IMG/VR virus record: IMGVR_UViG_3300025039_000014
Span: 40,760-104,759 of that record
Length of the DNA stretch: 64,000 nt
Direction: 5' to 3' (one strand)
From: a virus
Part shown: piece after piece, positions 16,996 to 64,000 of the stretch
Layout: each line of letters opens with the position of its first letter
How positions within the stretch are numbered: the stretch's first letter is position 1
Notes under the pieces: generated by a model
What the model saw: the letters and a program-made list of their open reading frames with translations, nothing else
What the model was told of the DNA's origin: nothing
Databases searched by the model: none
Made by a program: the position numbers and the translations under genes

Positions 16996-17471
16996 GTGAT
17001 GCTTCGACAACAGACGGACCCGCTACCGATACCTCTACGGTCGACCATGCGAAGACCATTCAGATCGTCGAGAAGCGCTGCAAGAAGCACGGTGTGGCGA
17101 TCGTCACGATCCAGCCGTTCAGTGCGCGCCTGTTCGTGTTCAGAGGTCTCGATACCTACAGCGACAAGCTCAAGGCGATCTTCGGCGTCGAGACGCAGAT
17201 GGGCTGCATCCTGCAAGACCTGAACGTCGGTGGTTTCTTCGGCTCCGAGTTGGACGTCAACGGCTGCCCGATTCTGGTGCTGGCGATCGATGGCACGACG
17301 AAATACCCGGAAGAAGCCATCTGGCACGAAGCGCTGCACGCGACCTTCGTCATCCTGGACCTCTACGGGGTCGAGTTCGACGTCGATAACCACGAAATCT
17401 ACACCTACACCCAGGGCTACATCGTCAGTCAGATTCGCCAGCAACTCTACGGGCGAGAGTCGTTTCGATGA
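16992..17471 (+). CDS. Small HExxH zincin-like protein, 159 aa
   Basis: The sequence contains AIWHEALHATFVILDLYGVE: H112-E113-A-L-H116 is a canonical HExxH zinc site, and D/E residues follow within 25 positions (FDVDNHEIY), a possible third ligand. This points to a metal-dependent peptidase or a zincin-fold accessory. There is no signal peptide, so it would act in the cytoplasm. ATGA overlaps bind it on both sides to the ABC ATPase and the acyltransferase-like gene. No family name is recognised. A zincin in this gene set is the most unusual part of the operon. Confidence 0.72.
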   Translation: MSDASTTDGPATDTSTVDHAKTIQIVEKRCKKHGVAIVTIQPFSARLFVFRGLDTYSDKLKAIFGVETQMGCILQDLNVGGFFGSELDVNGCPILVLAIDGTTKYPEEAIWHEALHATFVILDLYGVEFDVDNHEIYTYTQGYIVSQIRQQLYGRESFR

Positions 17472-18373
17472 TCCCGAATGACGTCGCGATCCGCCGGCCG
17501 GCCGCCTCTGAGTGGTCGGAGGGCTTCTCGTTGCTGTCGCGAATGGTCCTCGAGCGCGGCACCCGCGAAGACTGGCTGGCGCTGCACGATCTTCACTACA
17601 AGACCGAGACTGACTCCTTCGGCCAGACCTACTACCGCTGCACGCTCGACGGCACGCTGATCGGCGTGGTCGTCACGGCCTACCCGAAGCTGTTGCTGGA
17701 ACCGCGTCATCGCATGTTCCCGAAGATCAAGCCGACCGGCGGCTCCAAGCTCACCAATACGGCGCGGGCGAAGTTCGTGAATGACCTGTTCGCGATCGTC
17801 AACCGCTCGGTCGTTGACACGCTCTACCGCGGTGTCGGCGTCTCCTATCGGATGCTCAACCTGGCCGCCCGGATGCATCCACGCCAGGTGGTGGAGATCC
17901 AATCGGCCATGTCGAAATTCTCGCCCTTCGCCATGAAGGCAGGGTTCCTCTTCGCCAAGCCGATCCCGAACAAGAACTACGCCAAAGGCGTAGCGATGGT
18001 CACTCGTTTCTTCGATAGCCATCCGATGGACACCGTCGGCCTGCTCGAAGAGATCGACGCCATGCCGGACTCGCTCAAGCTCAAGACCCTGCGTGAGCTC
18101 ACGGCGTTCTATTACAAGTGCTCGGCGCTTGAGAAGACCGGTCGCAACCTGGGTCGCGGCCTGGCTGACCTGGATTACGAGCCTGCCGAGCTGATCGCCA
18201 AGATTCAGGGACTGATCTTCGCCTCCCCGCTCTATGGCGCCTATCGCAATCCTGACTTTGGCCGTGCGCTGCCCGACCGGCTACCGCTGGCCGCGTTCGA
18301 TCTCCAAAGTCCCAACGAACCGCTGAACCTCGCTGCCCTGGAAACCCTGATTGGAAGCGTCCCCGATGAGTGA
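17468..18373 (+). CDS. GNAT/Mom-like acyltransferase, 301 aa
   Basis: Residues ~5-165 fit a GNAT fold: a substrate-facing strand DGTLIGVVVTAYPKLLLEPR, the acyl-CoA-binding turn YRGVGVSYRML (R121-G-V-G), and the late strand-helix VVEIQSAMSKFSPFAMKAGF typical of GNATs linked to ABC ATPases. Phage Mu Mom, which modifies adenine, belongs to the same fold. The C-terminal ~135 residues are helical and unique. Coupling to ParB-like and ABC genes makes DNA modification a reasonable hypothesis; protein acylation is the alternative. Starts and ends overlap its neighbours by 4 and 8 bp. Confidence 0.72.
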   Translation: MIPNDVAIRRPAASEWSEGFSLLSRMVLERGTREDWLALHDLHYKTETDSFGQTYYRCTLDGTLIGVVVTAYPKLLLEPRHRMFPKIKPTGGSKLTNTARAKFVNDLFAIVNRSVVDTLYRGVGVSYRMLNLAARMHPRQVVEIQSAMSKFSPFAMKAGFLFAKPIPNKNYAKGVAMVTRFFDSHPMDTVGLLEEIDAMPDSLKLKTLRELTAFYYKCSALEKTGRNLGRGLADLDYEPAELIAKIQGLIFASPLYGAYRNPDFGRALPDRLPLAAFDLQSPNEPLNLAALETLIGSVPDE

Positions 18374-40400: not shown

Positions 40401-41974
40401 CGAACCTGACCAGCCAGTATCAGAGCTTCGTCGCGAGTCAGCTCACCAAATACGAAACCACGTCCACCGCCAACCTGGCGCGATCCACCCTACAGACCGA
40501 CGTTCAGGCGTATACCGACAACAAGTTTTCGGCGGTTCAGCTCACCGCGTCGGCGACCGCCTCGGGCACCAGTCTCGTTACCAACGGACTGTTCGCCAAC
40601 GGTTCGATCGAGGGCTGGGGCGATTCCACGCTGGTCAGGATTCTCAACAAATCAGACAGCGCGTCGGTCATCTACAAGAACTGCCCCACCAATTACTTCG
40701 CCGAGTTCGGTGACGATCAGCACGACCTCGACCGCTACTTCGTCGGCGAGTGGAAAGACTGCGCCGCCCACGAAGAGTTTGCCGGCAAGTTCAGTTGTTG
40801 TCGGGGTAGTAGTTCCGGCGGCCGGCTGGATATCGCGATTCAGTGGCGAGACGTCGATGGCGTGCTTTTCTTAGGCGAAACCATGCAAACGGTGACGTTG
40901 ACCGATGAGGCTGCCGGCTCCTGGCAAACCTCGGAGGTCAGCTCGACCATCTCCCCCGGTGGAGCGGTGAGAGCCCGCGTTCTCATTACCCGCAAGGCCG
41001 GGAGTTTCGGAAAGCTCTATTTCACCAACGTGGTGATGGTGCGCAACGACCCGGCACTGAACGCCTTCTACACCGCCAAGGTCAGCTCGAATGGCCTTAT
41101 CGGAGGCTTTGGCATCTACAACAACGGTCTGACTGTTGACGCCGGATTCGAGGTCGACAAGTTCTGGATCGGCCGCACGGAGGGCAAGGTCAAACCCTTC
41201 GTCGTGATGAACGGCAGCGTCTACATGGACGACGCCATGATCAACACCGTGACGATCGGCAAGCTGCGCTCGGCGACAGGCGGCGTCATCATTTCCGGCG
41301 GCAAGATCAAGGCGGAATTTATCGACGCTGACAATCTGGTCGTGAAATCAGCTGCGACGTTCACCGGTCAGGGCTCGCTATCCAAGAAAAACTCGCTGGG
41401 CTATTCGGAGGTTACAGGCACCAAGCCGCCGACCGATGCTGACCGCACGGCTTCGAACATCTCGTATGACACCAAGCGCGCCGGCGGTCGAAATATCGGC
41501 GACGTGCTCGAGGACGTGGCTGTCACTCGAAACCGGACGAACTACTGGATTCGTCCAGGCGAGACGACGATCAATGGCAACGCCATCTACACCGGGGACG
41601 CATACGTCGACACCCTTCAGATCAAGGGCGGAGCCATCATCGTGCCGCGTCAGGCGTTCGGTGTGGGTCAGGCTTCGGCTTCGCTCAGCATCGGCTCAGG
41701 CGTCTTCCCAGGCCCGATGGTGACGCTGATCTGCATGGCGTCGTTCACCAAACTCGGCGATGGCGACCAGCGGGTGATCATCGAGTATCGCAATCGCGAG
41801 CAGTTGAACGAGTGGATCAAGCTGGTGACGGAATGGCCGGACACCTACACGATCTCAACCATCATGGGCTTTCGTCAGATCGGCAACACCGGCGTTCACG
41901 ATGTCCGTGCGCGCTTCACCGACTCGAACAGTGACGGTCGAGTGTCACTGGTCTTCTTCCTGGGGCAACGCTAA
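34394..41974 (+). CDS. I+J-like tail-tip fibre / host-specificity protein, 2526 aa
   Basis: Tail-tip protein for receptor recognition. Residues 1-90 resemble lambda gpI (small beta domain), followed by two hydrophobic helices (~95-145, IGATTVAAMGIAG-like) and a linker; lambda has I and J as separate genes, so this is a fusion. Residues ~150-850 are the J-like ring region, ~855-1115 fibronectin-III-like repeats, ~1120-1340 and ~1520-1790 Ala/Glu-rich coiled coils with a duplicated unit (STASIRTEQNIR near 1715 and RTASIRTEKQIR near 1300), ~1365-1510, ~1800-1930 and ~2060-2210 beta-sandwich, sugar-binding-like modules, and a beta-rich C-terminal tip. The length is about twice lambda J. Confidence 0.9.
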   Translation: MSTSLIPVVQIEPQHVNLIVVYNALDLRDRETAKLNFDPSKTLADYMQGLEDVDQWSVSINGESYSPDDWVLINPAPDDYITVVPIPYGGGGGSKNIMRMVALVAIAVVAPYAAAYMLGTTVAAMGIAGAALTGVITMAGGMLVNALLPPSVPSANNSVSQSESPTYGIDGSKNTQTEDTIIPLIYGSYRYAGNIVNLSTDNEGKTQIVKAMMVVSEGEIDGISDFQVNDQPFDNYEDVETDWRPGAANQTAYGWFQDTKRMVNKAITLSTEEWAQHTTEGEIDRFRLDYLWPQGLVSINDKGKRTVYQAEMKAQYRKAGTTAWIDLPQRIYTEAATSQPYRVSFESPKLAEGIYEIRTRRLNNKATEVNVSDTVQLADIVEIIDDRVPYNHTASFAIRVRLTDQLGSLPKMTAKIRGIKVAKYTYNGELITREWSNNPAWIAVDLLTNKRYGAGLVLSRIDWRAFNDWAQFCLDNELTFNGVFDTFSNAWDAAQVVLRVGHARFTTIGTTLSLAIYRASEPVMMFGNGNIIEGSLKLNWSSIEDRSNEFEIEFYDKELDNKQNTVRLINEDSIARGDMQRISTTRMVGIDNEKQAYNEALFQKAMNEGLVMSGQLEAPIEAMVCGVGDVVLVQHDMPQWGESGRIRPGSTAKIIKIDRTLEIGASPVNMSMMVHHSVVKRASPTVAIVNHNSGSVFIQGVPASVAATRLVFGDQDRRILSIRSANGYTEIQLADTDGLAVGTGFELWDTDVIEARQIASYDAETSQITLVSALGQVPADLSNYMIGVTDKAAKPFTVVGVSGDGDYSRVLKLIEYNETIFDPANFQPTPIYSRPVQTVQHVRDLTVIEDSIIKSASLISSLIVSWSLPEDGNYAGAKVYIARNGGEMEIHGIAGAGVTSYHLQAKFGEELVIRVVAYDGGGRTANYNTAPQVTYNVTGSLDVPANVTGFTARLDRDGVELNWIKLADPDVVGYEIREGEDWETGTLIVEDHAGTRFFTTLKENGVYSYWIKAIDLRGAMSRVATTASVRELITPPVPDGVSITVTAFTATIVIAAAPFGITWEVWRSNAPLLNGQILSNAVLAGTGDTVQIVGLDYDTTYYLYIRGRSAFGVSAWYPTQFQTSADPAEIMEFIAGQIDESALAQELAKEIEKISAPEGIVGSVNERLAGVRDDLADEAVRVDGLINEANESTNKVQQNLLDETVRLDGRVDGISLSIDATQLTLSQRDDELAQRLLEAETSIVDEARASKDRDSALTETVQGITATFEDNNAYLGELRRVEAERDAIQAIQFEALAVTAANRTASIRTEKQIRIDGDTAEASERSALEVRVNDNEGAIVTESLTRADELSVISSRIGELSAKLDAVPQFGSGFEPGTDLTQWQVPTTDTLTVQSVDIYQGTQSALLTSSSATPTPGTDGIGVTRALIPSGAAEAFEGYEIVVQIAAKQPADNPTAEFAIAFATNGVGSSTWRMFTPTPSWDVYQFTWQVPEGSTVGVNNIAIWADTSGSGKGLLVDGVTVRRANAEISEITAAITTEQEARVSADEALSTDIQATTARLGLAEAAILEEITARATAEEATTGQITAITTRVGDNETRIAEETQARTTQTDALATRTTAMETRMGEAEGAITSETETRATADEALGLQIEEIKAEMGGDTAAVVEERQARVTADSALAYQISSVSARVDDAAAQLLNEQRVQIEQASLDAVQFEAIEASRAGSTASIRTEQNIRLEDDLAEASRRESIETQVGDLESTITEEAVARSTADMTLADQISQVSSKVDQNQASVSEQIKTSITGNSLIRDGSFELGDLALWGGSAVSISNIRERRDSTSPLNQNAPARYFVELDDVNHDTTAYLHNQGMVPVTPGAQYTFDASYAVRGEGDISIEFSVRFFDQDGNQVSWPSIKRVNHAETVAWLKLGPVTLTAPADGVQAMIIIGRISGGSGSLLVTNIRGYRVDEALASKIDQVQASIGPNIATAMTAYETKIDANSSRSSLSTNLTSQYQSFVASQLTKYETTSTANLARSTLQTDVQAYTDNKFSAVQLTASATASGTSLVTNGLFANGSIEGWGDSTLVRILNKSDSASVIYKNCPTNYFAEFGDDQHDLDRYFVGEWKDCAAHEEFAGKFSCCRGSSSGGRLDIAIQWRDVDGVLFLGETMQTVTLTDEAAGSWQTSEVSSTISPGGAVRARVLITRKAGSFGKLYFTNVVMVRNDPALNAFYTAKVSSNGLIGGFGIYNNGLTVDAGFEVDKFWIGRTEGKVKPFVVMNGSVYMDDAMINTVTIGKLRSATGGVIISGGKIKAEFIDADNLVVKSAATFTGQGSLSKKNSLGYSEVTGTKPPTDADRTASNISYDTKRAGGRNIGDVLEDVAVTRNRTNYWIRPGETTINGNAIYTGDAYVDTLQIKGGAIIVPRQAFGVGQASASLSIGSGVFPGPMVTLICMASFTKLGDGDQRVIIEYRNREQLNEWIKLVTEWPDTYTISTIMGFRQIGNTGVHDVRARFTDSNSDGRVSLVFFLGQR

Positions 41975-48029: not shown

Positions 48030-48136
48030 TGGATTTTAGGCCGATGCTGTCATGCCAACGACCCTACGATCTGGATCGACCGCCCTGTCTCGCGACAGGT
48101 GCGTGGCGTGAACGGGTGTCTCTGACTGTGTGATTG

Positions 48137-48165
48137 AAGGCGGGCTTCGGCTCGCCTTTCCTTTT
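48137..48165 (+). terminator. Terminator or attenuator in the phoH leader
   Basis: AAGGCGGGC and GCTCGCCTT pair (one G-T) around a TTCG tetraloop, followed by TTCCTTTT. It lies between palindrome 12 and the phoH start, so a transcript from the palindrome would have to pass it. Confidence 0.75.
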
Positions 48166-48177
48166 AAGGGTCGACCG

Positions 48178-48987
48178 ATGTCTCGAAGCTATAACGGCAA
48201 GCAGCAGAAGCGTCAGGAACGACGGTCCAGCAAGCGTAGGGATCGAGCCGATGTCGTGGCCCTGTTCGACAACCATCGCGAACAGGCAGGCGCCGAGATC
48301 CAGCGCGATCTGATGCGTTTCATGTCCACGGCCAACGCCAAACGCTCCAGCGAGCCCGTCCAGGCACGCAACGAGACTCAGGGTCACTACATCATCTCGA
48401 TCCAGGGGAACGATGTCACCGTCGGCACTGGCCCTGCGGGGGCCGGCAAGACCTGGGTAGCTACCGCACTGGCCTGTGAGGCGCTGATGGCCAAGGACGT
48501 CGAGAAGATCATCGTCACCCGCCCGGTGGTCGAGGCGGAAGAATCACTCGGGTTCCTTCCTGGCGAGATCATGGATAAGTTCGCGCCCTACTTCGTCCCG
48601 ATCCGTGAGGTCATGGACGAGCGCCTGGGTAAGGGCTTCGTCGACTATCTGATCGGGACCGGCAAGATCGAGATCGCCCCTCTGGCCTACATGCGGGGCC
48701 GAACGCACAAGAACGCTTTCGTGATTCTCGACGAAGCGCAGAACACCACGCCTAAGCAGATGAAGTTGTTCCTCACCCGTCTCGGCGAGAACACGCGTGT
48801 CGTCATCAATGGTGACGCCTCGCAGCAGGACATTCGCGCAAAGCTCAACGGCTTGGATGATGTCGTTCAACGGTTCAGCCGGACCCCTGGCTTTGGGGTG
48901 ATCGCGTTCGACCGGGCAGACGTTGTCCGCTCGGCGTTGGCGCAGATCATTGTGTCGAACTACGAAGACAATCCAGTCGCAGCTTAG
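48178..48987 (+). CDS. PhoH-like ATPase
   Basis: 269 residues. Walker A GPAGAGKTW (residues ~102-110), Walker B AFVILDEAQNTTP (~178-190), and the PhoH-typical RPVVEAEESLGFLPGE and VINGDASQQD are all present. PhoH proteins are P-loop ATPases related to SF1 helicases and are common in phages, where they may act on RNA or DNA. I chose ATG 48178, preceded by AAGGG; GTG 48130 lies within the leader hairpin. Control by palindrome 12 and the leader terminator is likely. Confidence 0.9.
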   Translation: MSRSYNGKQQKRQERRSSKRRDRADVVALFDNHREQAGAEIQRDLMRFMSTANAKRSSEPVQARNETQGHYIISIQGNDVTVGTGPAGAGKTWVATALACEALMAKDVEKIIVTRPVVEAEESLGFLPGEIMDKFAPYFVPIREVMDERLGKGFVDYLIGTGKIEIAPLAYMRGRTHKNAFVILDEAQNTTPKQMKLFLTRLGENTRVVINGDASQQDIRAKLNGLDDVVQRFSRTPGFGVIAFDRADVVRSALAQIIVSNYEDNPVAA

Positions 48988-49127: not shown

Positions 49128-49156
49128 AGCCCTCGATCAGACGATCGGGGGCTTTT
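49128..49156 (+). terminator. Intrinsic terminator
   Basis: AGCCCTCGATC pairs with GATCGGGGGCT around AGAC, followed by TTTT. It lies 140 bp after phoH. Confidence 0.8.
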
Positions 49157-49275: not shown

Positions 49276-49501
49276 TCCGGTCCCGACAAGGTTTCCGACA
49301 CCCTGGAGCTGAGGAAAGGCAGGAAAGGGAGTGATCCCGGCCCTGGGGTTTCCCCGTCAGCAGTTCCAGATGGTCAACGTAGTGAAGCCGGGCGTGTTGC
49401 GCATGCCGCCGCCGCGCCAGGAGCCGGCCCTCTCGAACATACCCCTCCCCCAACGCGAAGATTTGATTGCTGCCCCGGATCAGAGAGTGCTAACTTATGC
49501 A

Positions 49502-49521
49502 GTCACTAAGCACTTACTTAC
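49502..49521. promoter_or_regulatory. Palindromic operator-like site 13
   Basis: GTCACTAAGCACTTACTTAC. The right arm is perfect, the left arm has two changes. It lies 14 bp before the ATG at 49536. Confidence 0.72.
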
Positions 49522-49535
49522 TGTTAGAGAAAACA

Positions 49536-50360
49536 ATGAACTCTCCCGCGAAACGCGTCGTGCATACCAGCACGAGCAAGCCGCCTAAAAGCGTGCCAAT
49601 GGCGAAGCTCCCAGACAATTTGGTCGAGCGCTATCGGGCACGTCGTGACGGCAGTTTCGAGTTCTATGATCAATTCTCTTCCGTCGAGCTCGACGCGGTC
49701 ATGTCCGATGGTATCCCGCGAGACCTGCTGGAGAAGGAAGCAGACCTGCTGCTCTCCAAATGGTTCGATTATCGCCCGTATCACCTGTGGCGCGCCGCCG
49801 CGATCTTCCTCGAAGCCTACCGCTCCGAACACGCCTGGGTGATGCGCAAGCGCGAGGACATCTCCAGCCACTGGTTTCACAAGGGTATCAAGGCGAAGAC
49901 GCTCCACACCCTCGGATCACAACAGCTGATCGCCCTTTGGAAGTCGCGTCAGGCTGCCGACTCGATCGGCGCCCCCTACGACTTCTACTGCCGCGAGCTC
50001 TTGAATTGGGCTGAGCATCGCAACTGGACTCACCTGCCGCGGATCAATCAGCTCTACACAGAGGATCACGTCGAGGTCGTCAAGGACTTGCTGGCCAAGG
50101 ATCGCGTCGCTCGGCTGCGCTACGCCACCGAGCCTTGCTTCGGCAACGAGCAGTTCGCCGGCGAGCTTCACCAGAACGATTACCACCGCTATCTGATCGC
50201 ACAGATCAAGCAGAGAGCACATCCCGTTTTCTCACTAGGTGGCGCGGTCTTTCGCCGTTGCCATCTACCCGAAGCCGTTGCCAGAGATCACTTTGGCGAT
50301 GCGCTAGTGGATGAAGCTCTACGTCTCGCCGACCAGCTCTATCCGAACGACACCCTGTGA
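49536..50360 (+). CDS. Unknown protein at the head of the replication genes, 274 aa
   Basis: I chose ATG 49536 (14 bp after palindrome 13). The N-terminal ~25 residues are basic and disordered (SPAKRVVHTSTSKPPKSVPM). The rest is helical with many aromatic residues (KWFDYRPYHLWRAAAIFLEA, then DFYCRELLNWAEHRNW) and a Cys-containing FRRCHLPEAVARDHFGDA near the end. Its place before the Hfq-like and helicase genes suggests replication or regulation; no family was recognised. Confidence 0.7.
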   Translation: MNSPAKRVVHTSTSKPPKSVPMAKLPDNLVERYRARRDGSFEFYDQFSSVELDAVMSDGIPRDLLEKEADLLLSKWFDYRPYHLWRAAAIFLEAYRSEHAWVMRKREDISSHWFHKGIKAKTLHTLGSQQLIALWKSRQAADSIGAPYDFYCRELLNWAEHRNWTHLPRINQLYTEDHVEVVKDLLAKDRVARLRYATEPCFGNEQFAGELHQNDYHRYLIAQIKQRAHPVFSLGGAVFRRCHLPEAVARDHFGDALVDEALRLADQLYPNDTL

Positions 50361-50411
50361 TCGTCAGCACACACTGACATCGCATTCAAAGCACACACGG
50401 AGCAATCAACC

Positions 50412-50738
50412 ATGAAACCAGTTACAACCATCACCTCAGTCGAATCCCGCTCTCGTCGTGTGGACGCTGCCACCGGTCACAAGCCGTCTTTTAGCAGCAA
50501 GCCGGGGACCGAGAAGCGTCCGCCGACACGTCGCAACCTGGAGCAGCACGAAGCCGCCCTGATTCCCTCGATCCGCTCGCGATCGCCGATCAGACTGGTG
50601 CTGATTGACGGCACCTGCATGGAAGGCGTGATCGCCATCGGCTTTGACCGCTATTCCATCGGCATCGAATATCAGGGCAATCGCGAAAGCGTGTTCAAGT
50701 CCTCGATCGCCCGCATCATTACGCCGATCGGAGCCTGA
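50412..50738 (+). CDS. Hfq-like RNA-binding protein, 108 aa
   Basis: Residues ~45-105 align with Hfq: helix HEAALIPSIRSR, Sm1-like strands SPIRLVLIDGTCMEGVIAIG, then FDRYSIGIEYQ and the Sm2-like SVFKSSIARIITP. In E. coli Hfq the last part reads VYKHAIS; here it is VFKSSIA, keeping Lys but not the His. The first ~42 residues are a basic, disordered extension absent from Hfq. The family binds RNA as a hexamer and promotes sRNA-mRNA pairing. It is 52 bp after the 49536 gene and 3 bp before the helicase gene. The fold is inferred from pattern. Confidence 0.72.
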   Translation: MKPVTTITSVESRSRRVDAATGHKPSFSSKPGTEKRPPTRRNLEQHEAALIPSIRSRSPIRLVLIDGTCMEGVIAIGFDRYSIGIEYQGNRESVFKSSIARIITPIGA

Positions 50739-50741
50739 TGC

Positions 50742-52127
50742 ATGACTGCTGCCGCCGTTATCGCAGGTATCGGTGGCGCAGCCGGCTCAGCCAGTGCAGC
50801 GCCGCCCTCTCCGTTCGACCCTGACTATGAGGTCAAGGTGGTCGCGCATATCCTGCGCGACACCCATTTCATGCGTCAGTGTGATGATCTAGTCGACCGA
50901 GAGTATTTCGAATCGGCCTCGACCCGCTTCCTGGTCGGTGTGGCAAAGAACCACTTCAAGAAATACGGCTCCGCGCCCGATATTCGAACGCTCGCGATCT
51001 ACATCAAGAAGGCCAGCGCAACCGGCCGACTCAAGTCGGGTATGATCGATGACATCAAGGAAACACTCGGTCAGGCGTTTCGGGAGTCACTGGGCGACGT
51101 CAATTACGTCGTCGAGCAGGTGTCATCTTTCGCACGTCACAAAGCGCTGCAATCGTCGATCATGCGGGTCATCGACGACATGGAGAAAGCCGAAAAGCTG
51201 GGCCAAGATTTCGATTTCAGCCAGGCAGAGAAGGAATTCTCCAAGGCGCTGATGATCGGCACCAACGACGCGAACAACGGCTATGACTACTTCGAGTCGA
51301 TCAGCTCCCGCACCGAAGCCCGAGAAGAACGCAAAGCTGGTGTGGCGCCGGATCAGGGTATTACCTCCGGCTATCCAGCGATCGACACCCTGCTCTATCA
51401 CAAGGGCTGGGGTCGCGGCGAAATGGTGCTGTTCATGGGTCCACCCAAGAGCGGAAAATCGACAGCGCTGGGGCAGTTCGGAATCAATGCGGCACTGGCG
51501 GGCTTCGATGTCCTCTACGTGACCCTAGAGGTCGCCGATCTGATCATGGCCGATCGTATCGATGCCACCCTGGCGGATACTAAGGTGCATGAGTTGACCG
51601 ATAAGTCGGGCTCGGTGAAAGATGAGATCGAGAAGCTGGCTTCATCGTCCGGCAAATTCATCATCCATCAGTATCCGACGGGGAGTTTTACCCCCAAGCA
51701 GCTGTGTCGTCTCATAGAGCACTACAAAGCTCGCGGAATCGTCTTCGACCAAGTGGTCGTCGACTACGGAGACATCATGGCGCCAGACTTTCGCTCAACG
51801 GACCCGATCGAGAACAGCAAGAGCATCTACGTGGGTTTGCGCGCCGCTGCCATGACGTATGACGTCGCCCTTTTGTCAGCGACTCAGACCAACCGCGACG
51901 GAGCCAGAAATGCGACCGCCGGCATGACCGACGTCGCCGAGGATTTCAACAAAATTCGAATTGCCGATCTGGTGATCTCGATCAACAAAACAGAAGAAGA
52001 AAAGGCCGCCGGGGAAGCCCGCCTGTATTTCGCTGCGTCGCGAAACCAGCGCAGCGACATCACGGTGCGGATCGGCCAAGACCTGGAAAAGATGAAGTTC
52101 CTAACCAAAATTCTGGACATTACCTGA
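50742..52127 (+). CDS. DnaB-like replicative helicase
   Basis: 461 residues. An N-terminal helical domain (~1-180) is followed by a RecA-like domain with Walker A GPPKSGKST (~228-236), Walker B DQVVVDYGDIM (~340-350), the sensor SATQTNRDG, and an arginine-finger region FAASRNQRSDITVRI. It would unwind the phage replication fork. It starts 4 bp after the Hfq-like gene and overlaps the next gene by one base, placing the Hfq-like protein in the replication operon. Confidence 0.9.
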   Translation: MTAAAVIAGIGGAAGSASAAPPSPFDPDYEVKVVAHILRDTHFMRQCDDLVDREYFESASTRFLVGVAKNHFKKYGSAPDIRTLAIYIKKASATGRLKSGMIDDIKETLGQAFRESLGDVNYVVEQVSSFARHKALQSSIMRVIDDMEKAEKLGQDFDFSQAEKEFSKALMIGTNDANNGYDYFESISSRTEAREERKAGVAPDQGITSGYPAIDTLLYHKGWGRGEMVLFMGPPKSGKSTALGQFGINAALAGFDVLYVTLEVADLIMADRIDATLADTKVHELTDKSGSVKDEIEKLASSSGKFIIHQYPTGSFTPKQLCRLIEHYKARGIVFDQVVVDYGDIMAPDFRSTDPIENSKSIYVGLRAAAMTYDVALLSATQTNRDGARNATAGMTDVAEDFNKIRIADLVISINKTEEEKAAGEARLYFAASRNQRSDITVRIGQDLEKMKFLTKILDIT

Positions 52128-52372: not shown

Positions 52373-52894
52373 ATGGAAGGCACCAACCCGTTTCGATTGA
52401 AGAAACCCTGTGCCAACTGTCCGTTCCGATCCGACGCAGGGGCTATTGATTTAGCCCCTGGTCGTTTGGAAGAGATCGCACGGGACATCACCGAAGGCGA
52501 AGGCAAGACCTTCTTCTGCCACAAGACCCTCTCAGGCAGTCATACCGAAGACGATGAAGGCAACGAGCTCAGCTATGAGCGCGGCGATAAAGACTCCCTC
52601 TGCATCGGCTCTGTCATCTTCCAGCTCAAATACGGACGGCTCCCCATCGGCGCCAGACTCGGATTCATGAGTAAGGATTACGACTACGAGAAACTAATGG
52701 CTCAGTTCGACAGCGTCGTCGACCCCGAAGATGTCTTTACCCCTCGTGCGCATGGCAGATATTGGCTCAAGGACAACGGGGAGTGGATCATCGGGTCTTG
52801 GGATGGTCACTGCTGGGAGACCGATCAACACTTAGGGCTCACCGATAGCGATTACGATGAGATCGGGTCTGCCCTGGTGAACCCGCATGAGTGA
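52373..52894 (+). CDS. Cys-rich CxxCPFR-type protein, 173 aa
   Basis: Residues 13-20 are CANCPFRS, the hallmark of a phage/bacterial protein family of unknown role (I recall it as DUF6283-like); FFCHKT and LCIG follow with further Cys/His, which could complete a zinc site. The C-terminus is acidic and aromatic (GHCWETDQHLGLTDSDYDEI). It lies between the helicase and primase genes and overlaps the primase start by 8 bp, so a replication-linked role is likely. Confidence 0.7.
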   Translation: MEGTNPFRLKKPCANCPFRSDAGAIDLAPGRLEEIARDITEGEGKTFFCHKTLSGSHTEDDEGNELSYERGDKDSLCIGSVIFQLKYGRLPIGARLGFMSKDYDYEKLMAQFDSVVDPEDVFTPRAHGRYWLKDNGEWIIGSWDGHCWETDQHLGLTDSDYDEIGSALVNPHE

Positions 52895-53975
52895 TCTCAA
52901 GACCATGCTCGATGACCTGGATATTCGGGACTATCTCGACACCCAGGGGATCGAATACAAGACCAGCCGCTCGCGCAAAGGAACCCAGCTGATCCTCAAG
53001 GATTGTCCGGTCTGTGGCGGCGACGGCTGGAAGGTCTATCTCAACGAAGAAACGGGGCTGGGAAATTGTTTCCAAGGCGACCATCCTCCCGGCGAGAACT
53101 TCAACAAGTGGTCGTTCATCCGCGCCCATCTCGACAATCCCGCCCCGCGGATGGTGATCGAGCACATCGAGGGATATCTGGACTCGGTCGGCTTCACCAT
53201 CGAGCGTGAGCGCAAGGTGGCCACCTACGAGGCGCTGAGCGAGCTTCCCGAAGATGCCGTTGCATTGCCCACCCCGAGTGGACAGATCGTCTCCTACCTC
53301 CACGATAGAGGCGTCACGGCCAAGCAGTGCGAATACTTTCGCCTGCATTTCTGCGAAAGGGGTGTTTTTCGCTTCAAGACCGACAGCCGCGAACATAGCC
53401 AGGATTTTACCGGTCGCGTGATCATTCCGGTGTTCGACCTGGCTGGCGATTTCAAGACGTTCCAGGGTCGAGACATCACCGGCACTGCCGACGACAAATA
53501 CCGATTCGCCACCGGGCTGCCGGCAGCCGGCGCCTTCCTTTACAACGGCAATAACGCCGTCGGCAAAAGGCATGTCGTCGTAGGCGAAGGCGCCTTCGAT
53601 GTCTGGGCGATTCAGAAGACGCTATGGAGCCGCGAACTCGATGAGATTGAAGCGGTGGGCACCTTCGGCAAGCACCTATCTCACCTGAGCGCCGGTGACG
53701 ACGACCAACTGGGGGCGTTTCTGAACCTCAAGGCTGCCGGTCTCGAGACCATCACCATGCTGTGGGATTCCGAGACCGCCGCGATTCGAGATGCGCTCGG
53801 GGCCTGCGATCTGCTCCAGCAGCACGGCTTCAAGACCCGTCTGGCCACCCTGCCGCCGGGACAAGACCCAGGTGAGTCCACGGAAATTCAGATAAATCAG
53901 GCGATTATCAAAGCGCAGCCCTATTCACGCTCGCTTGCAACAAAAATGCGTTTGCAAATGCTTCACTCCCGATAA
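52887..53975 (+). CDS. Primase with zinc-binding and Toprim domains
   Basis: 362 residues. The N-terminal zinc site CPVCGGDGWK with a later Cys (NCFQGDHPPG) resembles the CHC2-type primase finger. The Toprim core has RHVVVGEGAFDVWAIQ (catalytic Glu) and ETITMLWDSETAA (Asp-x-Glu-like, in place of DxD). It makes RNA primers for the DnaB-like helicase. It ends 19 bp before palindrome 14. Confidence 0.88.
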   Translation: MSDLKTMLDDLDIRDYLDTQGIEYKTSRSRKGTQLILKDCPVCGGDGWKVYLNEETGLGNCFQGDHPPGENFNKWSFIRAHLDNPAPRMVIEHIEGYLDSVGFTIERERKVATYEALSELPEDAVALPTPSGQIVSYLHDRGVTAKQCEYFRLHFCERGVFRFKTDSREHSQDFTGRVIIPVFDLAGDFKTFQGRDITGTADDKYRFATGLPAAGAFLYNGNNAVGKRHVVVGEGAFDVWAIQKTLWSRELDEIEAVGTFGKHLSHLSAGDDDQLGAFLNLKAAGLETITMLWDSETAAIRDALGACDLLQQHGFKTRLATLPPGQDPGESTEIQINQAIIKAQPYSRSLATKMRLQMLHSR

Positions 53976-56744: not shown

Positions 56745-56930
56745 ATGAGTCGGCTCAAGAAATACGCGGTAATTGCAGGAATTGTTCTGGTCGCATTCAT
56801 CACGCTAATCGTGATGTTTGCGGCCTGGATCAAGAAGGTGTTGTTCATATTGACGGTCATTATGATCGTGACCGTCGCGATCCGCTACCTGGCAAAGAAA
56901 GTCAGAATGCTACCGAGGAAGAAAGTATGA
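56745..56930 (+). CDS. Small two-pass membrane protein, 61 aa
   Basis: Two hydrophobic helices: residues ~7-28 (YAVIAGIVLVAFITLIVMFA) and ~30-48 (KVLFILTVIMIVTVAIRY), with a basic tail (LAKKVRMLPRKKV). It overlaps the TAXI gene start by 4 bp (ATGA) and may be coupled to it. Confidence 0.68.
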   Translation: MSRLKKYAVIAGIVLVAFITLIVMFAAWIKKVLFILTVIMIVTVAIRYLAKKVRMLPRKKV

Positions 56931-57775
56931 AACGAACCATCAGTCGCGGCCTTATGTTGGCCTCCCTCATCGTCTTCGGACTGGGGTTATCCGCATCAGT
57001 CATGGCGGACAACTTGCGCATCTCTACCGGCGCGTCGGGCGGCACCTATCACAACGTCTTCGGGGTGAATCTCGCCGACATCATGCGCGAGCAAGGATTC
57101 CAGCCGCAAACCCTGACGTCCAAAGGTAGCGCGGAGAATCTGGATCGCATTGCCAGTGGCGAGACAGACGTGGGCTTCACTCAGGCCGACGCACTCGCAC
57201 TATGGCTGACCAAGAACCCCGGTGCCGGCGTCGAAATCCTGGGAAAGCTCGGGCAGGAATGCGTCTACCTCGCCGTGTCCGATAGTGGCGACGTGCAGGA
57301 TGAATCGGATCTCGATAACGCCGGAGCCAGCATCGCCGTCGGTGATCAGGGATCGGGCTCGGCCATGACCTGGGACTACCTGCGAACGCTCAACGAGGAC
57401 TACCAGAGCGCGTCGACCTACTACCAGGGCGGTATTCGTGCGCTGGCAAAGGTCAAGACTGGCGAACTGGATGCGTTCCTGTGGGTGACGTCACCCGAGA
57501 ACCTGAATCACAAGTTCCTCCAGGCAGTGCGCACCAGCGGGTCCGGCATGCATCTGGTCGATGTGGACGACTACGGGCTCAACAACAAGCTGCCCAACGG
57601 CGAGCAGGTCTACGAGTTCCGTGATGTCGAGCTTGAAGACGCTATGTTCGCCGACACGGTCGAAGTCCCCTGCACCTCCGTGCTGGTCGTTGCCAGTCGC
57701 GATCTCAATGACAACGCCCTCGAGACCGTCGCCACCGCCGTGATGATGAACGGCAACCGCATCAAGGGTCAGTAA
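56927..57775 (+). CDS. TAXI-type solute-binding protein, 282 aa
   Basis: Signal peptide MKRTISRGLMLASLIVFGLG with cleavage after VMA, then the classical TAXI opening NLRISTGASGGTYHNVFGVN. Further TAXI-like elements are NLDRIASGETDVGFTQADA and the C-terminal half with VEVPCTSVLVVASRDL. TAXI proteins feed TRAP transporters with organic acids or amino acids; no permease is encoded nearby. On a phage this is unusual, and it would act in the periplasm using a host permease or some other role. It is coupled to the preceding membrane protein. Confidence 0.85.
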   Translation: MKRTISRGLMLASLIVFGLGLSASVMADNLRISTGASGGTYHNVFGVNLADIMREQGFQPQTLTSKGSAENLDRIASGETDVGFTQADALALWLTKNPGAGVEILGKLGQECVYLAVSDSGDVQDESDLDNAGASIAVGDQGSGSAMTWDYLRTLNEDYQSASTYYQGGIRALAKVKTGELDAFLWVTSPENLNHKFLQAVRTSGSGMHLVDVDDYGLNNKLPNGEQVYEFRDVELEDAMFADTVEVPCTSVLVVASRDLNDNALETVATAVMMNGNRIKGQ

Positions 57776-62626: not shown

Positions 62627-64000
62627 TCAGAGTTTACTGATATTAGGTGGCCTAGTGATATTTGGCCCACCTTGAGTGTCGGCGATCGCGTTTAGAGTGT
62701 TGCTCAAATGCTGCTGCCGGATATGGCCATAGTTCTTGATCGTAGTCTCGATGTCCGAATGCCCCATGAGCTTGCTCACCGACAGGAAGTCGGCACCAGC
62801 CATGATGAGCTGACTCGCGAAGTTGTGCCGTAGCGTGTAAAGGTCCATGTCATCGGGCAGGTCACACAACGACTTGATCCGCGTCCAGGGCTTCCTGAGA
62901 CCACCTTTCGACAGTCGCTTCCCGGTTCGCGGCGAGGGAAACACCGGCCCCTTCCTCGGATCACCCTGCTGGTCTCTCCACGTCGTGAGCACCTGAGATA
63001 GTTGACCGGCCAGGGGGAAACTCATCCGCCCCATATCGTGGTGAGCAATCTTCTCGATCACCTTGTTGACGATGGTCACGTCGCGATCCAAGTGAGTCCA
63101 CTCAAGACCCAGCACATCTCCGGGGCGAAACCCTCCATAGTAGATGCAGAGGATGGCCGGCACGACGTGGTCGACATAGGTAAGATTGGAGAGATCAGCT
63201 CGGTGCGAATTCGACTTCTTTTGCAGCGAGCGTGCGCGGGCCTCCCGCTTTGATTCATTGTAGCGTTCGAGCCCTTTATGCAGCTCGGTGATCTCCCAAG
63301 GCTCCAGCGCCCTCCTTTCACCCACCGAGTGATTCTCAGCCTCGGTTGCAGGCGGCCTTTTCAGCTTCACCCCTTTCAGTGGATTCGCCGACAGGAACTC
63401 TTCCTCGACCGCATGATTGAGCATCGCCTGGATAACGGCATAGGAGCGCTTGATGGTGACGTGCGCCAATCCCGATCCCTCGAGTCGCATCTGCCAGCGT
63501 TTGACCAGGTGCTTGTCGAGCTCGGTCATGTTCTTGCCACGCCAGCCGGTAAAGTGCCGCTGGAATCGCTGAACGTCGTCCTTGCCGCCTTTGTTGCGTA
63601 GTAGATGGGCCTCGTAATGCCGATCGAAATACCCGCCAACGGAGCGTGAGAGCTCCAACTCCCGCTCACGGGTGGCAGCCGCCTCGTTACGCCTGGCTTC
63701 CTCTAGCCTGGCAATACGATCTGACTTGGGGTCGATACCAAGCGCCAGCTGCCTCGCATAGTCGGCAGCGATGAGTCGCGCATCGCTTGGGGAGATCGCC
63801 GGATAGGTGCCGATCTTGAGCTTCGGCCGGGTGTCATTGACCAGGGAGCGATAGCGGAAATAATAGGTCGGCTTTCCCCGCGTCCCGATCTGAACCAGAA
63901 AACCACTGATCTTGGTGTCGTTTAGGAGGGTTAGCTTGTCGCGAAGCGCAGTTTTGAGGGTCGTTTCGTTGATCATGACCCGTTTAGAACGATCAGCCAT
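62627..64000 (-). CDS. Tyrosine integrase
   Basis: 457 residues, N-terminus at the window edge. The N-terminal ~75 residues are of the DUF4102/P4-type (LKTALRDKLTLLNDTKISGF, LVQIGTRGKPTYYFRYRS); a SAM-like domain spans ~110-210. The catalytic set is present: Arg in GFRPGDVLGL, His-x-x-Arg in TLRHNFAS, a further His in LMGHSDIETT, and the Tyr in IKNYGH. It carries out integration and, with other factors, excision. The start ATG is the last codon of the window; ATG 63976 is an alternative, and the true start could lie beyond the edge. Confidence 0.92.
   Translation of the reverse strand: MADRSKRVMINETTLKTALRDKLTLLNDTKISGFLVQIGTRGKPTYYFRYRSLVNDTRPKLKIGTYPAISPSDARLIAADYARQLALGIDPKSDRIARLEEARRNEAAATRERELELSRSVGGYFDRHYEAHLLRNKGGKDDVQRFQRHFTGWRGKNMTELDKHLVKRWQMRLEGSGLAHVTIKRSYAVIQAMLNHAVEEEFLSANPLKGVKLKRPPATEAENHSVGERRALEPWEITELHKGLERYNESKREARARSLQKKSNSHRADLSNLTYVDHVVPAILCIYYGGFRPGDVLGLEWTHLDRDVTIVNKVIEKIAHHDMGRMSFPLAGQLSQVLTTWRDQQGDPRKGPVFPSPRTGKRLSKGGLRKPWTRIKSLCDLPDDMDLYTLRHNFASQLIMAGADFLSVSKLMGHSDIETTIKNYGHIRQQHLSNTLNAIADTQGGPNITRPPNISKL

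Follow-up and report, generated by a model that had tools for sequence, protein, structure and literature searches.

An altered Hfq-like protein in a phage replication module, encoded directly before a DnaB-like helicase gene, and its probable role in replication control

The window analysed here is a stretch of 64,000 nucleotides (positions 40,760 to 104,759 of virus record IMGVR_UViG_3300025039_000014). It holds a small gene for a protein that a sequence-only reading had taken to be a phage-made variant of Hfq, able to redirect host small-RNA networks. The gene and its surroundings are as follows.

48130–48987, plus strand: PhoH-like ATPase gene (Pfam, PHROG), a neighbour kept in most relatives
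49128–49153, plus strand: terminator-like hairpin between phoH and phrog_2500/hfq-like/dnaB, a consensus match only
49497–50360, plus strand: phrog_2500 family gene (E 6.3e-44), a conserved 5' neighbour with no assigned function, at the same position in relatives
50412–50738, plus strand: gene for the Hfq-like (Sm-fold) protein, 108 aa, with ATG start and TGA stop
50412–50543, plus strand: codons of the basic N-terminal extension before the first helix (residues 1–44), delimited by charge and model confidence
50544–50735, plus strand: codons of the Sm/Hfq domain (residues 45–108), from Pfam, AlphaFold2 and PDB matches
50694–50702, plus strand: codons of F95-K96-S97, by alignment the equivalents of Hfq Y55-K56-H57
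50742–52127, plus strand: DnaB-like replicative helicase gene (PHROG 19, E 2.7e-81; Pfam DnaB_C)
52887–53975, plus strand: DnaG-type primase gene (PHROG 47, E 3.3e-43), a conserved neighbour
62627–64000, minus strand: tyrosine integrase gene at the window end

Only 3 bp separate the Hfq-like stop (ending at 50738) from the dnaB start (50742), the two genes are in the same frame, and the gene does lie inside the replication gene cluster, 5' of the helicase gene, as had been read from the sequence. Compared with its two nearest relatives, it shows purifying selection, with dN/dS at about 0.35–0.39 and dS near saturation. The virus record (104.8 kb) contains terminase, portal, ligase, and tyrosine integrase genes, so the phage looks temperate, and it is probably integrating, in contrast to the plasmid-like SSU5. 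A Halomonas-like host is suggested by the nearest relatives, locus L023 and an element in the Halomonas sulfidaeris chromosome (L122), whose helicases are 65–66% identical to that of the window; in the family of this suggested host, a P0001 relative occurs in only 1 of 151 genomes. In the H. sulfidaeris element the helicase frame is broken and the Hfq-like ORF is intact. Shortly 5' of the Hfq-like start in the window there is also a small inverted repeat, GTCAG-CACACA-CTGAC (50363–50378), a possible leader structure that by eye is not conserved in L023.

The window protein matches the Pfam Hfq family (PF17209) at E 3.4e-6 and 27.0 bits, reaching the cut-off of 27 exactly, and its core by itself scores 28.6 bits. 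Taken alone the Pfam score is borderline; the profile of the family matches Hfq in the PDB at E 2e-13, and Pfam Hfq is matched by 49 of the 52 members in the aligned set. With phmmer, the window protein finds C. crescentus Hfq at E 0.0044, while its 24.4 bits against NCBIfam TIGR02383 are far from the equivalog cut-off of 61.7. Phage_Hfq (PF23874) gave no match to the window protein, or to the 52 aligned members at E 0.01; the window protein has no match to Flag1_repress/FljA (PF03614), and PHROGs assign it no function. AlphaFold2, fed with the relatives collected here, predicts for the single chain an N-terminal helix (45–56) and a five-strand Sm barrel (59–64, 69–78, 82–87, 90–95, and 99–103), with pLDDT of about 95–97 over residues 51–100. 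Among the 50 PDB matches listed, all are Hfq or Hfq-like, with TM normalised to the target of up to 0.93; identity to solved Hfq structures is only about 20%. The Hfq layout first noticed over residues 45–105 is thus borne out by profile comparison and by a model that returns the Sm fold and not a different one. The basic N-terminal extension is also real: the first ~41–44 residues are predicted with low confidence or as disordered, their net charge is about +7 (over the first ~41), and the extension is net-positive in 61 of 64 family members. Judging from these profile matches and the predicted fold, a temperate phage here encodes a genuine yet strongly altered relative of Hfq.

No relative came up when annotated phages and plasmids were searched by tblastn with the window protein, or in a first genome scan, and relatives were therefore reached via the neighbouring helicase. 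The helicase and the phrog_2500 neighbour place the window phage among SSU5-like phages and phage-plasmids, whose module order phrog_2500–(Hfq-like)–dnaB–primase is present in the window at a helicase identity of about 40%. In 105 helicase-anchored loci, the order (phoH)–phrog_2500–[Hfq-like]–dnaB–dnaG is very widely kept. For counts of what fills the slot before dnaB, these were reduced to 77 non-redundant loci; L001, L003, L006, L017, and L022 are one contig, identical in DNA to the window throughout the compared 12.3 kb, and were counted once. A strong family member occupies the slot in 58 of the 77, which argues that the gene is not there by chance, and a weak member in 4. The other 15 have no profile member: in 13 the gap is 120 bp or less, too short for a gene, L081 holds a weak type, and L013 an unrelated-looking ORF. 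The gene is absent from about a fifth of the related loci that have this helicase, so it is either not strictly essential or replaceable.

Strong matches to the slot-ORF profile all lie in the slot, with three exceptions, one of them a cellular Hfq and the other two nickievirus copies overlooked by the slot filter owing to an extended start codon; the Paracoccus match at L021 is an ordinary cellular Hfq and served only as an anchor. The distance from the Hfq-like stop to the dnaB start is mostly −3 to +13 nt across members. Slot proteins are highly diverged in about 5 of the 77 loci, and the weak type of Xenorhabdus and Morganella is joined to the family by profile comparison (92%), with a predicted Hfq fold. 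A Stenotrophomonas slot ORF (69 aa) showed no demonstrable kinship with the family (hhalign probability 1%). Nickievirus genomes have a small gene between phrog_2500 and dnaB, annotated as 'hfq' in Nican01, and the hairong copy, at 31.4 bits against Pfam Hfq, retains the canonical YKH. Some nickievirus copies (L008:3520-3834 and L009:3526-3834) carry an insertion of about 16–20 residues in the loop between Sm strands 3 and 4, which hairong lacks. Aeromonas and Cupriavidus plasmids of 103–135 kb carry an 'RNA chaperone Hfq', in the same slot in the three fetched. These phage and plasmid proteins belong to the same family, in the same slot before dnaB, yet their Hfq names come from annotation pipelines only, and most phage copies are called 'hypothetical protein'. 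At one locus (L005:3-1184), the helicase is seemingly interrupted near the P-loop by an intein-like segment (...VSSHNTGVGKS).

Hfq has been studied as a matchmaker of host small RNAs. Its proximal site takes A/U-rich single strands and free 3' ends, with Q8 and K56 touching the base and H57 touching the ribose, a contact that may favour RNA over DNA; its distal site takes A-rich repeats, and arginines on the rim drive annealing (PMC10628458). We aligned 64 family members with cellular Hfq and compared these surfaces. D40 and K56 are present in all 64 members, position 42 is Tyr or Phe in 62, and position 8, Gln in Hfq, is His in every one, a change that could alter base preference. Position 55 is Phe in 50 members and Tyr in 12, and position 57 is His in 45 and Ser in 18, giving a motif of F-K-H or F-K-S. 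The window protein has H, Y, and F-K-S at the Q8, F42, and Y55-K56-H57 positions, so that Q8 and H57 are replaced; the FKS at residues 95–97 had been correctly picked out in place of YKH, and given the family counts it is a recurrent feature of the clade and not a single odd change. At the positions of the distal A-R-N face (Y25, I30, K31, Q33, Q52, T61), the window protein has V, T, C, E, E, and R, and at the rim (R16/R17/R19) it has I, R, and R; none of the 64 members is basic at all three rim positions. Averaged over columns, entropy is lowest at the proximal pore (0.9 bits; distal face 3.15, rim 2.87), and conservation of the proximal positions exceeds that of position sets drawn at random (p about 1e-4). 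As far as alignment can tell, then, the proximal uridine/3'-end pore is conserved across the family, with Q8 and H57 replaced in the window protein, and the distal face for A-rich mRNA and the arginine annealing rim are lost. As for the earlier suggestion that FKS would change uridine-end binding, H57A by itself takes away only around one third of the RNA binding of E. coli Hfq, K56A around two thirds or more (PMC11012335), and K56 is kept in the family.

The protein probably acts in phage replication control, and not by hijacking small RNAs of the host. In broad terms, we see roughly even chances that it represents a widespread, phage-specific Hfq clade, found in phages and phage-plasmids of alpha-, beta-, and gammaproteobacteria, that has shed the matchmaking surfaces and become part of the replication module, acting in helicase or replication control through RNA binding at the proximal pore or, in FKS forms, in the handling of ssDNA. 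Our preferred specific reading, held tentatively and at slightly less than even confidence, is an Hfq/Sm-like ring that controls its own replication operon by binding phage RNA at the proximal pore. Under this reading, the protein would be an inherited core member, of phage lineage, of the SSU5-like replication module. It would most likely form a ring, whose proximal pore would bind single-stranded, probably U/A-rich RNA or RNA 3' ends, and the disordered basic tail would add non-specific affinity for nucleic acid. Likely targets would be phage transcripts, such as the phrog_2500/hfq-like/dnaB mRNA or a replication-control RNA, and protecting or translationally restraining them would set how much helicase is made and when, or to what copy number, the phage replicates. 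Conservation confined to the proximal pore fits a ring that holds ends or protects RNA, which is favoured over a matchmaker. Co-inheritance speaks for this reading as well: distance matrices of the Hfq-like protein correlate with those of helicase, primase, and phrog_2500 at 0.50–0.53, beyond all 500 permutations. The most concrete precedent, by analogy, is ColE1 RNA I: E. coli Hfq binds it by the proximal face, shielding it from RNase E and reducing copy number, and the distal mutant Y25D retains both binding and protection (PMC11012335). Hfq-like genes next to helicase genes in Thermococcus plasmids are a second precedent (PMC3543421). We count against this explanation that the window contains no Rfam RNA and no tRNA, that the gene is missing from about a fifth of loci, that His in place of Q8 could alter base preference, that H57S takes away a contact that may favour RNA over DNA, and that common descent by itself might account for the correlation with dnaB.

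The main rival to operon control is an accessory role at the replisome, with a six-fold Sm ring beside the six-fold DnaB ring binding ssDNA or the helicase and aiding loading, and with FKS forms binding DNA; we consider this unlikely, though the best placed of the alternatives. DNA binding is more plausible where His57 is Ser, as in 18 of 64 members, because the His57 contact, which may favour RNA over DNA, is then lost and ssDNA becomes a possible ligand (PMC10628458). The gene adjoins dnaB with almost no gap in nearly all members, the tails are basic, and a crystal structure of E. coli Hfq with dsDNA exists (5uk7). However, H57 is kept in 45 of 64 members, and the gene is often missing from phages with the same helicase family. 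In the distance matrices, moreover, the Hfq-like protein has a lower partial correlation with the helicase (0.16) than with the other two neighbours (0.32 and 0.22).

FljA is a translational repressor acting on fliC. By likeness to it, the slot protein might specifically repress translation from a single mRNA leader, on a host or a phage transcript, which we regard as rather improbable. The diverged slot proteins of the Xenorhabdus type score 22.3 bits against Pfam Flag1_repress/FljA, and have a predicted Hfq fold, but this link is below the cut-off of 24, and the window protein itself has no FljA match. SSU5 (L138, NC_018843), which has no slot gene, carries a strong homologue of FljA, the phase-1 flagellin repressor, elsewhere in its genome (record 96897-97343; 271.7 bits). 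Sequence and modelling together hint that FljA could have come from phages and be related to Sm-fold proteins.

The original proposal, in which a phage Hfq takes over small RNAs of the host and thereby redirects its regulation, now appears very unlikely. The Hfq fold speaks for it, as does the proximal pore, which in Hfq holds the 3' ends of small RNAs, and all 8 host genomes of related elements that were checked have their own hfq, so competition would be possible. Such a takeover needs the distal face and the arginine rim, however, and both are lost family-wide; moreover, the slot is a conserved replication position and not that of an accessory gene. Mixed hexamers with host Hfq, by co-assembly or poisoning, are the least probable reading: the fold is the same and the hosts of related elements have an Hfq of their own, but identity to solved Hfq structures is only about 20% and residues elsewhere in the fold have diverged too.

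In the open-access full-text literature, we found no paper describing this helicase-adjacent family of phage Hfq-like proteins; already known are the automatic naming of some members as Hfq and the separate Pfam Phage_Hfq family. The latter is likewise a phage Hfq-like family, and its only trace here is one diverged slot protein at 13.4 bits. Bacterial Hfq (PF17209, TIGR02383) shares the helix and five-strand Sm fold and the D40/K56/aromatic-42 pore, but differs in keeping Q8, YKH, the distal face, and the rim, and usually has a C-terminal tail where the window family has a basic N-terminal one. Hfq-like proteins of Thermococcus and Methanocaldococcus plasmids are also encoded on mobile elements in one transcription unit with a helicase; they are archaeal, mostly zinc finger fusions, and encoded 3' of the helicase (in Thermococcus plasmids directly downstream of it), whereas the window gene lies 5' (PMC3543421). 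Hfq3 of B. anthracis pXO1 is another Hfq on a mobile element, but its overexpression phenotype needs distal-face residues that the window family lacks (PMC5348863). FljA (PF03614) is weakly related to the most diverged slot proteins, and not to the window protein.

A large viral lineage that keeps one of the three RNA-binding surfaces of Hfq, tied to a replicative helicase, offers a natural test of what the proximal pore does alone and of whether Hfq-type rings act in the DNA replication of mobile elements, a question previously raised for archaeal plasmids. Because SSU5-like phage-plasmids spread resistance genes, control of their replication is also of practical interest.

Two further genes in the window are of note. 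One (17468-18370) matches phrog_886, a phage family of ABC-transporter ATP-binding subunits, at E 4.5e-115. The other (56927-57775) is an ORF with a signal-peptide-like start that, as an impression from its sequence, resembles a periplasmic solute-binding protein, which is unusual for a phage replication region.
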